Shown one piece after another: positions 2,908-30,909 of a DNA stretch of 64,000 bases. The position numbers and the translations under genes are program-made. The notes under the pieces are model-generated. The model searched no databases. It had not been told where the DNA came from and was given only the letters and a program-made list of their open reading frames with translations. Numbering within the stretch: the first letter of the stretch is position 1; every line of letters begins with the position of its first letter. The DNA is from Akkermansia muciniphila (lineage in GTDB: Bacteria; Verrucomicrobiota; Verrucomicrobiia; Verrucomicrobiales; DEV007), in the NCBI GenBank assembly GCA_945883495.1, contig CAMCXS010000010.1, positions 1 to 64,000 on the forward strand. Direction: 5' to 3'.

Positions 2908-4101
2908 TTAATGGGATTGGCAGAAGTTCTCGAACCGGTCGAGGCCCTTCTTGATCACGTCAAGGCTGGTCGCGTAGCTCAAGCGGACGCTGTAGTCATG
3001 ACCAAACGCCACTCCGGGAACAGCCGCCACCTGGTAGCGGCTGAGGAGCTTCTCCGTGAGGTTGATCGACTTGATGCCCATCGGGCTGGTATCGACCAAG
3101 AAGTAGAACGCGCCATTCGGCTCCATGACCCGGACGTTCGAGATCGAGCGGAGGCGCTGCAGCATGTAATTGCGGCGCATGTCGAACTCGTCCCGCATGT
3201 CGCTCACGAACCCCTGGTCGGCCGTAATCGCCGCCAACGCCCCGTATTGGGCGAACGTGGTCGGGTTCGAAGTGGTGTGGCTCTGGAAATTGTCGATGGC
3301 GTTGGCGATCGGGAGCGGCGCGGCGAGGTATCCCAAACGCCATCCGGTCATCGAGTAGGCCTTGCTAAAGCCGTTCACCGTGATCGTGAGCTCCTTGATG
3401 TGGGGATTGAGCGACGCGATGCTGATGTGCTCCTTTTCGTTGTAGATCAGCTTCTCGTAAATCTCATCGGAAAGGACCAGAATGTCCTCCGCAACGGCGA
3501 TTTCGGCGATCGCTTCGAGTTCTTCCCGTGTGTAAACCGAACCCGTCGGGTTGTTCGGGCTATTGATGATGACCATCTTGGTCCGCCCGCTCATGTGGTT
3601 GTCGAAGTCTTCGGCGGTCAGCTTCCAGCCGTTCTCAAACTTCGTATCGACGAACACCGGCACCGCGCCCACGGACTTCACCATTTCCGGGTAGCTCGTC
3701 CAATACGGCGCAGGGATGAGGACTTCGTCGCCAGGATTACAGACCGCCGCGATGGCGTTGAACACACTTTGCTTGGCACCGCAGCTGACGATGACCTGCT
3801 CCTTGGTGACCTCGAAGTGGTTTTCCAGCAGCAACTTGTCCGCGATCGCCTGACGCAGCTCGGGGATGCCAGAGGAAGCGGTGTATTTCGTCTTTCCCTG
3901 CTCCAATGCAGCGATCGCGGCCGCCTTGATGAAATCCGGCGTATCGAAGTCCGGCTCTCCGGCTCCAAAGCTGGCGATGTCGATCCCTTCGGCCTGCATC
4001 TTCTTGGCTTGGGCCGTCATGGCCAAGGTCATGGAAGGAGAGAGCGAGCGAATGGTGTCCGCGATGGCGTCCTGAGCGGTGGGATTGGCGAGCGTTTTCA
4101 A
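2908..4101 (-). CDS. aspC: Class I PLP-dependent aminotransferase (aspartate aminotransferase type)
   Basis: Cytosolic pyridoxal-phosphate enzyme of fold type I, 397 aa, typical for the family. The PLP lysine is Lys247 in NGFSKAYSMTGWRLGY. The cofactor-ring Asp212 is in SDEIYE, Asn183 in SPNNPTG, and the C-terminal substrate-carboxylate arginine is in VRLSYA. The Iγ-type pattern (GAGEPDFDTP near residue 46, KYTASSGIPELR near 72) is that of thermophile-type aspartate or aspartate/prephenate aminotransferases, so aspartate/2-oxoglutarate transamination is the best guess. Prephenate or aromatic substrates cannot be excluded. It stands alone with 255 bp to prmA upstream. ATG 4101 is used; Met24 would be a less likely start because conserved sequence begins before it. 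Confidence 0.88.
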   Translation of the reverse strand: MKTLANPTAQDAIADTIRSLSPSMTLAMTAQAKKMQAEGIDIASFGAGEPDFDTPDFIKAAAIAALEQGKTKYTASSGIPELRQAIADKLLLENHFEVTKEQVIVSCGAKQSVFNAIAAVCNPGDEVLIPAPYWTSYPEMVKSVGAVPVFVDTKFENGWKLTAEDFDNHMSGRTKMVIINSPNNPTGSVYTREELEAIAEIAVAEDILVLSDEIYEKLIYNEKEHISIASLNPHIKELTITVNGFSKAYSMTGWRLGYLAAPLPIANAIDNFQSHTTSNPTTFAQYGALAAITADQGFVSDMRDEFDMRRNYMLQRLRSISNVRVMEPNGAFYFLVDTSPMGIKSINLTEKLLSRYQVAAVPGVAFGHDYSVRLSYATSLDVIKKGLDRFENFCQSH

Positions 4102-14925: not shown

Positions 14926-15581
14926 CTCACCGATTTTTAGCGCTCGCCCCTTCCGCCTCTCCCCGCGTCAAGCTCTGCGGGTTCACCTCCGCGCAGTCCG
15001 CTGCGGCGGCGATCGATGCTGGAGCCGACGCCGTGGGCATCAATTTTTGGCCAGGCTCGAAGCGCTTTATTGCGCCAGCAGACGCTGCGCCTTGGCTCGG
15101 AGCCTTGGCGGGCCAGGTCTGCAGGGTTGGCCTTTTCGTGAACCCATCCATGGAGGAGATCGAGGCGGCGGTCGATCTCGGCATGCTCGATGCCCTGCAA
15201 CTCCACGGCATCGCGGACCCCGGTTTCATCGAGGAAGCCGCTACCTTCGGGCTGCCAGTGATCCAGGCGATCGGCGTGGGGGCGCATGGTCCGCTCGCGG
15301 AGCCGGCGCTCTTCCCCACTCCTTGGATTCTCCTTGATGCTCATGTCCCTGGCGCTTTCGGGGGGACGGGTCAAACCTTTTCCTGGCAGCAGTTCCACGA
15401 AGTCGCCGCCGCGCATCCGGACCAACACTTCCTCCTCGCCGGCGGCCTCACCCCGGAAAACGTCGCCGACGCCATCCAGATCGCGCAACCGTTCGCGGTC
15501 GATACCGCCAGCGGCGTCGAATCGAGTCCCGGAGTGAAAGACCCCGCTCGGATGCGGGCTTTCGTTGCGGCAGTCCGTTGA
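14922..15581 (+). CDS. trpF: Phosphoribosylanthranilate isomerase
   Basis: TIM-barrel isomerase of tryptophan synthesis, 219 aa, GTG start overlapping the previous stop by 4 bp. The catalytic Cys is in KLCGFTS (about residue 19). AVGINFWPGSKRFI, GLFVNPSMEEI, ALQLHG, ILLDAH (general acid Asp), GGTGQTFSW, LAGGLTPENV and VDTASGVESSPGVKD give the family pattern to the end. The final 80 codons (15339-15578) recur downstream at 15813-16052 with 89% identity, and a repeat element lies between the copies. This copy is intact and must be the functional one, but its 3' third may be a replacement. Confidence 0.95.
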   Translation: MTHRFLALAPSASPRVKLCGFTSAQSAAAAIDAGADAVGINFWPGSKRFIAPADAAPWLGALAGQVCRVGLFVNPSMEEIEAAVDLGMLDALQLHGIADPGFIEEAATFGLPVIQAIGVGAHGPLAEPALFPTPWILLDAHVPGAFGGTGQTFSWQQFHEVAAAHPDQHFLLAGGLTPENVADAIQIAQPFAVDTASGVESSPGVKDPARMRAFVAAVR

Positions 15582-15591
15582 GCCGGTTTCG

Positions 15592-15717
15592 TGAATGGAC
15601 GAGCGCGTCTCTTCAAGGGACGAGCGCGTCACCTCAATGGACGACCGCGTCACCTCAATGGACGACCGCGTCACCTCAACGGACGACCGCTTCACCTCAA
15701 TGGACGACCGCGCCGAA
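15592..15717 (+). repeat. Tandem array of six 21-bp units (TCAATGGACGACCGCG-type)
   Basis: Six consecutive 21-bp units starting at 15592, 15613, 15634, 15655, 15676 and 15697. Units 3 and 4 are identical. Units 2 and 5 differ from them by two bases each, and 1 and 6 are more diverged at the outer ends. Each unit starts with TCAATG (or a one- or two-base variant) and carries GAC-GA(C/G)-CGCGTCACC. A frame through it would read a heptad MDDRVTS, but no ribosome site or downstream conserved protein supports translation. It begins 11 bp after the trpF stop. A degenerate array with the same period and core lies at 30698-30844. Confidence 0.9.
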
Positions 15718-15750
15718 GCTGCATTTATGAACATTCATACCCTCCATCTC

Positions 15751-15812
15751 GCCTTTCGTTCACGCGCCGCCGGGGTTCTGCTTCCAACAGTTAAGCGGGA
15801 TGACTGTTGTTT
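15751..15812 (+). repeat. Conserved ~60-bp motif shared with 30345-30405
   Basis: A 62-bp block that recurs inverted at 30345-30405. The right-hand 32 bp (15781-15812), containing CTTCCAACAG, then TAAGCGGGATGA, then TTGTTT, matches the other copy at 29 of 32 positions. The left part (GCCTT-CGTTC...) matches less well and with one base of length difference. Its right end coincides exactly with the start of the duplicated trpF 3' end, which suggests an element boundary. Confidence 0.85.
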
Positions 15813-16076
15813 GCTCGTGTCCCTGGCGCTTTCGGGGGGACGGGCCAAACCTTTTCCTGGCAGCAGTTCAACGAAGTCGCCGCCGAGCATCCGGACCAGT
15901 AATTCCTCCTCGCCGACGGCCTTACCCCGGAAAACGTCGCCGACGCCATCCGGATCGCTCAACCGTTTGCGGTCGACACTGCCAGCGTCGTCGAATCGAG
16001 TCCCGGGGTGAAAGATCCGGAGCGGATGCGAGCGTTCCTCGCCGCGGTCCGCCCCTCCCCGCTCCTCCGCCCCTGA
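15813..16076 (+). pseudogene. Displaced 3' end of a trpF gene (pseudogene fragment)
   Basis: Bases 15813-16052 align without gaps to the last 80 sense codons of trpF (15339-15578), with 27 differences in 240 bases (about 89% identity). Eighteen of the differences are at third codon positions. The frame is intact except for TAA at 15900-15902, where trpF has CAC, and it runs on to TGA at 16074-16076 with seven extra codons instead of stopping where trpF stops. It has no start and is not expected to be expressed. The pattern of change is that of a copy that diverged while still coding, not of simple decay after a recent duplication. Confidence 0.9.
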
Positions 16077-30056: not shown

Positions 30057-30344
30057 CGGTCCTTCTCAACCAACGAAAGGACCTTCATTCCACCGCAAAC
30101 TAGCGGACTGCAACTCTCCACTGGATGTTTCGCCCGGCCGTAAGCCTAAATGCGGAGATGGAATGCCTCGCGGTAGAGCCGCAGAGAGCGCGGAGAATCA
30201 TAGCGGACAGTGGCTAGGGTTAAGATTCTCCCGTCACCTTCCCGATGATGAAGGATGAACGGGAAATCCGTCAGACCTTCGCGTCTTGGCGTCTTGAGCG
30301 AAGCGGGCGTGACACCCTTTCCAACACGGAGGCAAACTACGGAT
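30057..30344. other. Gene-free, repeat-like intergenic DNA upstream of the LRR kinase
   Basis: No coding frame with support. Contains GCAGAGAGCGCGGAGA (30181-30196) and CTTCGCGTCTTGGCGTCTTG (30278-30297), phrases that resemble dispersed intergenic repeats I remember from verrucomicrobial genomes but have not checked. The promoter of the LRR kinase should lie in the first 150 bp; no convincing boxes were found. Confidence 0.4.
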
Positions 30345-30405
30345 AAACAATAATCATCCCGCTTACCTGTTGGAAGTAGCGCATCGCAGCAGGCGAACGG
30401 AAGGC
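30345..30405 (-). repeat. Second copy of the ~60-bp motif (inverted)
   Basis: Minus-strand copy of the motif at 15751-15812. The 32-bp core (30345-30376) has CTTCCAACAG, TAAGCGGGATGA and TTGTTT with three mismatches to the first copy. The left part (30377-30405) also aligns with a one-base length difference. It lies 293 bp downstream, in the same orientation, of the 21-bp array at 30698-30844. Confidence 0.82.
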
Positions 30406-30562
30406 AAGGAGTGCTGCAAGACCCGTTGGCGACGCTCAGCCTAGGCTAACTTGGCCGAGGGTGTTCATCATGGCTCAGAAAAGCGCTAGAAGACGGCCTA
30501 AGTGTCCACGGATCTCCCCATAGTCCCGCACCTTTCAGGGCGGAGCGCCTGTCGTGGCGTTT

Positions 30563-30631
30563 CCCAGGGCTGCGGTCGCTGAAAGCTCCCTGCGCCCTGG
30601 GCTACCCTATCCCGGCCCGTGGGGCCTTTTT
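30563..30631 (+). terminator. Two hairpins, the second an intrinsic-terminator-like GGCCC-GTG-GGGCC-T5
   Basis: CCCAGGG (30563-30569) pairs with CCCTGGG (30595-30601) over a 25-nt loop. Then GGCCC (30614-30618), a GTG loop and GGGCC (30622-30626) are followed by TTTTT (30627-30631). The second has the form of an intrinsic terminator on the plus strand, although both flanking genes are on the minus strand. So either an unannotated plus-strand RNA ends here or the whole is a dispersed repeat. Confidence 0.5.
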
Positions 30632-30697
30632 GAATCGCTTCCAGCGGCTACCCAACCGTGGCGGCGCGAGCGGTGCAGACGTCGCGATGCCGGTTGT

Positions 30698-30844
30698 ACG
30701 ATCACGAGACGTCATTGAAGCGAGTCAGCTCTGAATTGAAAGAGACCGGATCGTCATTGCAGAAACCATGGAAGTCATTGAAGACACGAGAGCTATCATT
30801 GATAAGACACGACATCTCATTGCAGAGAGCAGAGATGCGTTCGC
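30698..30844 (-). repeat. Degenerate 21-bp tandem array (second copy)
   Basis: On the minus strand, units start at 30823, 30802, 30781, 30760, 30739 and 30718, exactly 21 bp apart, each beginning TCAATGA, TCAATGAC, GCAATGAC or a close variant. A weaker unit precedes at 30844. The remaining positions are poorly conserved apart from a CGTGTCT-like stretch that matches CGCGTCAC of the first array. Same period, same core and same orientation relative to the conserved motif as at 15592-15812. Confidence 0.8.
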
Positions 30845-30881
30845 GTGTACGAGAGGAAGCGTTGTACGCGCAGGAGCGCGA

Positions 30882-30909
30882 GTTGATGGTTGAGGGTTGA
30901 TGGTTGAGG
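30882..30909 (+). repeat. Perfect 14-bp direct repeat
   Basis: GTTGATGGTTGAGG occurs twice head to tail (30882-30895 and 30896-30909), just after the 21-bp array and 32 bp before the end of the cytochrome gene. Probably a slippage product; no function can be assigned. Confidence 0.7.

Follow-up and report, generated by a model that had tools for sequence, protein, structure and literature searches.

Two sites in the window, by which we mean the whole 64,000-nucleotide stretch analysed here, each carry an array of 21-bp units next to a copy of a short motif (Table 1). At the first, an array, a leader fragment of an IS91-family element and a transposon end fill positions 15582-15811 and are directly succeeded by a duplicate trpF 3' end, which starts exactly where the transposon end stops. 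At the second, the order across 30143-30893 is repeat D, a transposon end and repeat B, the latter two adjoining within 2 nt at 30509-30510. The sequence-only reading had described six 21-bp units followed 34 bp on by the motif at 15751-15812, as well as a second pair in the same order and orientation on the minus strand. Both descriptions held: Tandem Repeats Finder (TRF) confirmed the first array, and the 32-bp core at 15781-15812 is identical to the minus-strand sequence at 30345-30376 in 29 of 32 bases, the periodicity of the array on that side being weak.

Table 1. Repeat fragments at the two sites of the window, with examples of phased arrays
Feature	Coordinates	Strand	Basis or remark
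Array A, six tandem 21-bp units, consensus TCAATGGACGACCGCGTCACC	15592..15713	+	TRF, genome search
Piece of the 5' leader of a transposase element of the IS91 family (Zn-binding, Y2), forming the "34-bp spacer"	15714..15749	+	leader match
RAYT/TIRtron right end, truncated, last ~60 bp	15750..15812	+	C197 right-end match, core search, fold
Second copy of trpF 3' end, in-frame stop	15812..16051	+	89% identical to 15338-15577
Dispersed repeat D	30143..30330		95% identical to C107:4242-4428; outer side of transposon end
RAYT/TIRtron right end, truncated, last ~165 bp	30345..30510	-	C78, C197 matches
Dispersed repeat B	30509..30893	-	periodic head 30698-30844, long palindromic tail; genome-wide matches
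Example arrays of period 21, 42 or 84 bp	L298:16587-16799; L286:10148-10377; L287:19741-19969; L317:5746-5879; L319:250-602		

Array A is a minisatellite. It is placed by TRF at 15594-15712 (period 21, 5.7 copies, 90% match, score 189), its best local lag-21 identity is 0.92, and a genome search recovered four further loci, on contigs C12, C61, C143 and C169. The gap between this array and the motif has the length of 34 bp first given to it; it is not empty, being the piece of IS91-family leader, which matches the leader of an intact ORF at C169:4037-5515 and the sequence at C143 with 94-100% identity. The Pfam domains Y2_Tnp and Zn_Tnp_IS91 are found in the intact ORF on C169, and the junction between array A and the leader falls at the same point in the window and at C143.

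The array on the minus strand is of another kind. The 21-bp phase and the TCAATG core are present there but weak, with a best local lag-21 identity of 0.57, and TRF with relaxed settings reports a period of 63 and a 69% match. Repeat B, whose periodic head this array forms, gave 58 genome-wide matches when used as an entire query; four long copies lie elsewhere (C5, C15, C129 and C201), and partial ones are found on C166 and C3. Its 21-bp units differ from each other, yet each is conserved across the copies on C5, C15 and C129. Because these position-specific units are conserved between copies, the array at 30698 was copied as a block rather than being simply a tandem array in decay. The two arrays of the window therefore differ in kind, one being a tandem array and the other the head of a dispersed repeat, its units specific to their position. 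The tail of repeat B (30509-30630) contains a long palindromic segment (AAAGGCCCCACGGGCCGGGATAGGGTAGCCCAGGGCGC...) with dozens of genome-wide occurrences; its copies often stand as inverted pairs about 100-170 bp apart, and it looks like a separate miniature element. At 30882-30909 there are two copies of a 14-bp direct repeat, GTTGATGGTTGAGG, which also occurs on C69 and C47 and in the congener G001.

That the motif is dispersed in many copies throughout the genome, as had been proposed, was borne out. A pattern search of the genome with the core (up to three mismatches) returned 39 places, while the reversed control returned none, so that the number of copies far exceeds what chance would give. 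A search with the terminal 26-mer, which in the minus-strand copy lies at 30348-30373, gave 58 matches with up to six mismatches, tandem and inverted pairs included; these group to about 42 sites and were counted in the regions around pattern matches. The assembly is a fragmented draft of 206 contigs, and many element copies lie at contig ends. Among 38 related genomes the core pattern was confined to one genus, with 49 places in the own genome and 4 and 5 in two congeners. The minus-strand copy is 96% identical to C78:26715-26881 and 73% identical to the right end of a complete element on C197. One 38-kb contig, C57 (L249, L250), holds seven solitary transposon ends, without RAYT sequence in the parts fetched, and in some of them GACTGTTG replaces GATTGTTG.

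The complete copy on C197 spans about 1.37 kb, with a left core at 2006, a RAYT ORF and a right core at 3347. The ORF comprises 361 codons (354 amino acids from the ATG were used in searches) and has an inverted core just upstream and a core downstream; the ends of the element are inverted, self-complementary and about 26 bp long (CCAACAGTCAAGCGGGATGATTGTTG), and an inverted match of 24 bp at 96% flanks the gene. The protein matches the NCBIfam family REP_Tyr_transpos with an E value of 9.8e-12 and a score of 45, which is below the curated cut-off of 80, and Pfam Y1_Tnp weakly (22.7 against a cut-off of 23). All 18 aligned relatives (those with stop codons were excluded from the alignment) match REP_Tyr_transpos; the HUH motif reads HFH in every one of them but one, which has HIH, and the catalytic Y-(I/L)-D-L-N is present in all. 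A PDB search with the RAYT protein sequence found no match, and fold comparison was therefore used. The AlphaFold model, which is of good quality for about the first 180 residues but poor after them, has as its best match among all PDB chains 4ER8, a RAYT bound to a REP hairpin (E 1.3e-5), followed by IS200-type transposases. Given the ORF, the family match, the retained motifs and the fold, the element is a RAYT-type transposon, about 1.37 kb long and bounded by inverted ends. A congener (G002/REEB427) has a RAYT that is 81-83% identical, with corresponding hairpins on both sides. The family is rich in RAYT homologues; a single genome gave 35 matches. The statement that the motif has neither a terminal inverted repeat nor a transposase thus describes the window copies, which are truncated pieces, and fails for the parent element, which has both.

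The left ends of the element bear on its mobility. Eight of the nine examined (that of C197 and seven more) share 95-100% identity within the element, over as much as 266 bp, whereas their outer flanks have a mean pairwise identity of 25% and a maximum of 35%, no closer than random DNA. The insertion boundary is sharp and coincides with the outer foot of the hairpin. Since eight left ends are near-identical inside and unrelated outside, the element has moved as a unit. The ninth, on C79, is 88% identical, has lost its middle and is an older copy.

The terminal hairpin of the first window copy lies at 15785-15809. Folded as RNA, the strand that carries the GCGGGAT loop forms 9 pairs at -9.1 kcal/mol, as compared with -6.7 for its complement, and paired cells make up 84% across 34 distinct end sequences. 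Compensatory changes among these 34 sequences did not exceed those in shuffles; we therefore infer the hairpin from its self-complementarity and from the behaviour of known relatives. At its 5' foot, right-end copies have CTTC/TTCC, and left-end copies have ATTC/TTCC. An identity as a GTAG-type REP was rejected, as there is no GTAG at the foot.

We are confident that the motif is the right terminal inverted repeat, together with a 3' untranslated stretch, of a RAYT single-strand transposon of the TIRtron kind, that the arrays are unrelated neighbours, and that fragments of repeats have been stacked at breakpoints. By analogy with known relatives, the RAYT transposase would recognise the end as a single-stranded hairpin and its catalytic tyrosine would cut at the hairpin foot, after which the element would move as single-stranded DNA. 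Solitary ends may be the remains of incomplete or decayed events.

The sequence-only reading had instead joined array and motif in a genuine composite element, mobile or regulatory, with copies of its own. Two instances within 64 kb in matching order and orientation, where uniform random placement predicts fewer than one, speak for such an element, but the search set beforehand, for the core and for a 21-bp period upstream of it, found the core without an array nearly always, which refutes it. Among the 58 matches (about 42 sites), a 21-bp array lies within 700 bp upstream at the two window copies only; the other 56 cores lack one, and lag-21 self-similarity upstream of them does not exceed 0.52, against 0.92 and 0.57 at the window sites. 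The arrays, in turn, occur without the core: none was found, with up to seven mismatches, in the 3.5-9 kb around array A at C12, C61, C143 and C169 or around repeat B at C5, C15, C129, C201, C166 and C3, so that all eight further loci with array A or a long copy of repeat B are free of it. The two arrays are moreover unlike in sequence and type, and the supposed parts are separated by the IS91 leader at one site and by the tail of repeat B at the other. In a sample of 864 kb, a lag-21 array that matches the weaker of the two window arrays in strength lies within 700 bp on one side of 0.4% of positions, or 1.1% when lag 42 is also allowed; for about 42 sites, 0.15-0.45 coincidences of array and core are expected under uniform placement and two were seen, a gap that intergenic clustering of repeats probably closes. 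The coincidence is mildly unusual, and it is not evidence of linkage because arrays occur without cores and cores without arrays. With the two together only at the window sites, we reject the composite element and regard it as extremely improbable.

Two further explanations concern the motif itself. A hairpin of nine pairs followed by TTT, in copies located between genes, could be read as a transcription terminator or RNA element (a hairpin and then T-rich sequence) that is merely repeated. We hold this to be very unlikely indeed, for the motif forms both ends of a transposon, inverted and with sharp insertion boundaries, it is restricted to one genus among the 38 genomes searched, and it has no match in Rfam, where a search of the window returned a tRNA as the only match and no RNA family in the region. 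The solitary ends could also be REPIN-like miniature elements actively multiplied in trans by the RAYT rather than decayed full copies. About a dozen hairpins without adjoining element sequence, and several tandem or inverted hairpin pairs, with seven hairpins on C57 alone, agree with multiplication in trans, but most right-end copies, both window copies included, keep some 3' sequence of the element, the length varying from copy to copy, as truncation predicts, and we consider a REPIN-like origin rather unlikely.

For the window copies as truncated right ends of the transposon, the surroundings are informative as well. Each of the two congeners has trpF on one contig or in one context and the superoxide dismutase gene on or in another. 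The sequence past trpF is collinear between the two congeners and contains none of the window parts, and past the cytochrome c gene (30937) the congeners are likewise syntenic and free of them. Both window sites are mosaics of repeat fragments at synteny or rearrangement breakpoints, although misassembly at repeats in this draft genome is a residual possibility. As a separate observation, the trpF copies at 15338-15577 and 15812-16051 differ at third codon positions in 17 of 26 cases, which suggests a period of selection on the second copy before it acquired its in-frame stop.

The motif, which had been left without a known class, belongs to one that is known, namely RAYT-like genes with terminal inverted repeats (TIRtrons or TIRYTs; PMC3733652), the closest known kind. 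In that class, RAYT-like genes are flanked by terminal inverted repeats (TIRs) whose copies occur throughout the genome alone, as dimers or grouped (Di Nocera et al., 2013, PMC3733652), and some reported TIRs are self-complementary (PMC3733652). The present element likewise has a RAYT-like HUH/Y1 gene between inverted repeats unrelated to GTAG REPs, and its self-complementary ends are dispersed singly, as dimers and in clusters. Unlike TIRtrons, it carries GCGGGATGA in place of GGGGWSAS, a motif present in only part of the described TIRs (PMC3733652), and its eight near-identical insertions show movement as a unit. With REPtrons (RAYT/TnpA-REP) it shares the transposase family and fold (best match 4ER8), and with their REP and REPIN sequences the imperfect hairpin of about 25 nt in dispersed extragenic copies. 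It differs from them in lacking GTAG/GTRG at the hairpin foot and in its mobility: REPtron genes are present in few copies and reportedly do not move as a unit (PMC6006769), whereas here eight left ends are 95-100% identical inside and unrelated outside. IS200/IS605 elements have in common with it the Y1 HUH catalytic core, hairpin ends and multiple copies, yet their hairpins are subterminal and not terminal inverted repeats, while here they are inverted at the very termini, and the present protein has roughly double the length and scores as a RAYT. The sequence family of the element was not found in the literature searched.

We tentatively propose, as a possibility on which we place less than even weight, that a transposase of the RAYT class, a family usually described as low in copy number and immobile as a unit, here travels with a complete transposon by means of hairpin ends that are self-complementary, and that it also leaves solitary ends behind or multiplies them. 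The element would then be a living intermediate form that connects IS200-type insertion sequences with REP/REPIN systems. A false composite element is removed and the parent transposon named, so that roughly 42 sites can now be annotated correctly; a multi-copy RAYT element is also a modest addition to what is known of how RAYT transposases relate to mobile insertion sequences.

Apart from the transposon, this genome is strongly enriched in tandem arrays whose period is 21, 42 or 84 bp. In the 864-kb sample, consisting of contigs C1-C5 and C7 and the window, they account for 11 of 22 distinct self-similar loci, and 44 of 98 windows lie at lags that are multiples of 21, as compared with an expectation of about 5%. 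In a crude check of whether these phased arrays are noncoding, long spurious ORFs turned up frequently, the sequence being rich in GC. Nothing relevant was found in the literature on 21-bp phased arrays, and none were seen in samples of G018 and G029; they do occur in G014, a genome of the same family. Each phased array has its own unit, often with a palindrome of 12-18 bp that returns at intervals of 42 bp, or four helical turns.
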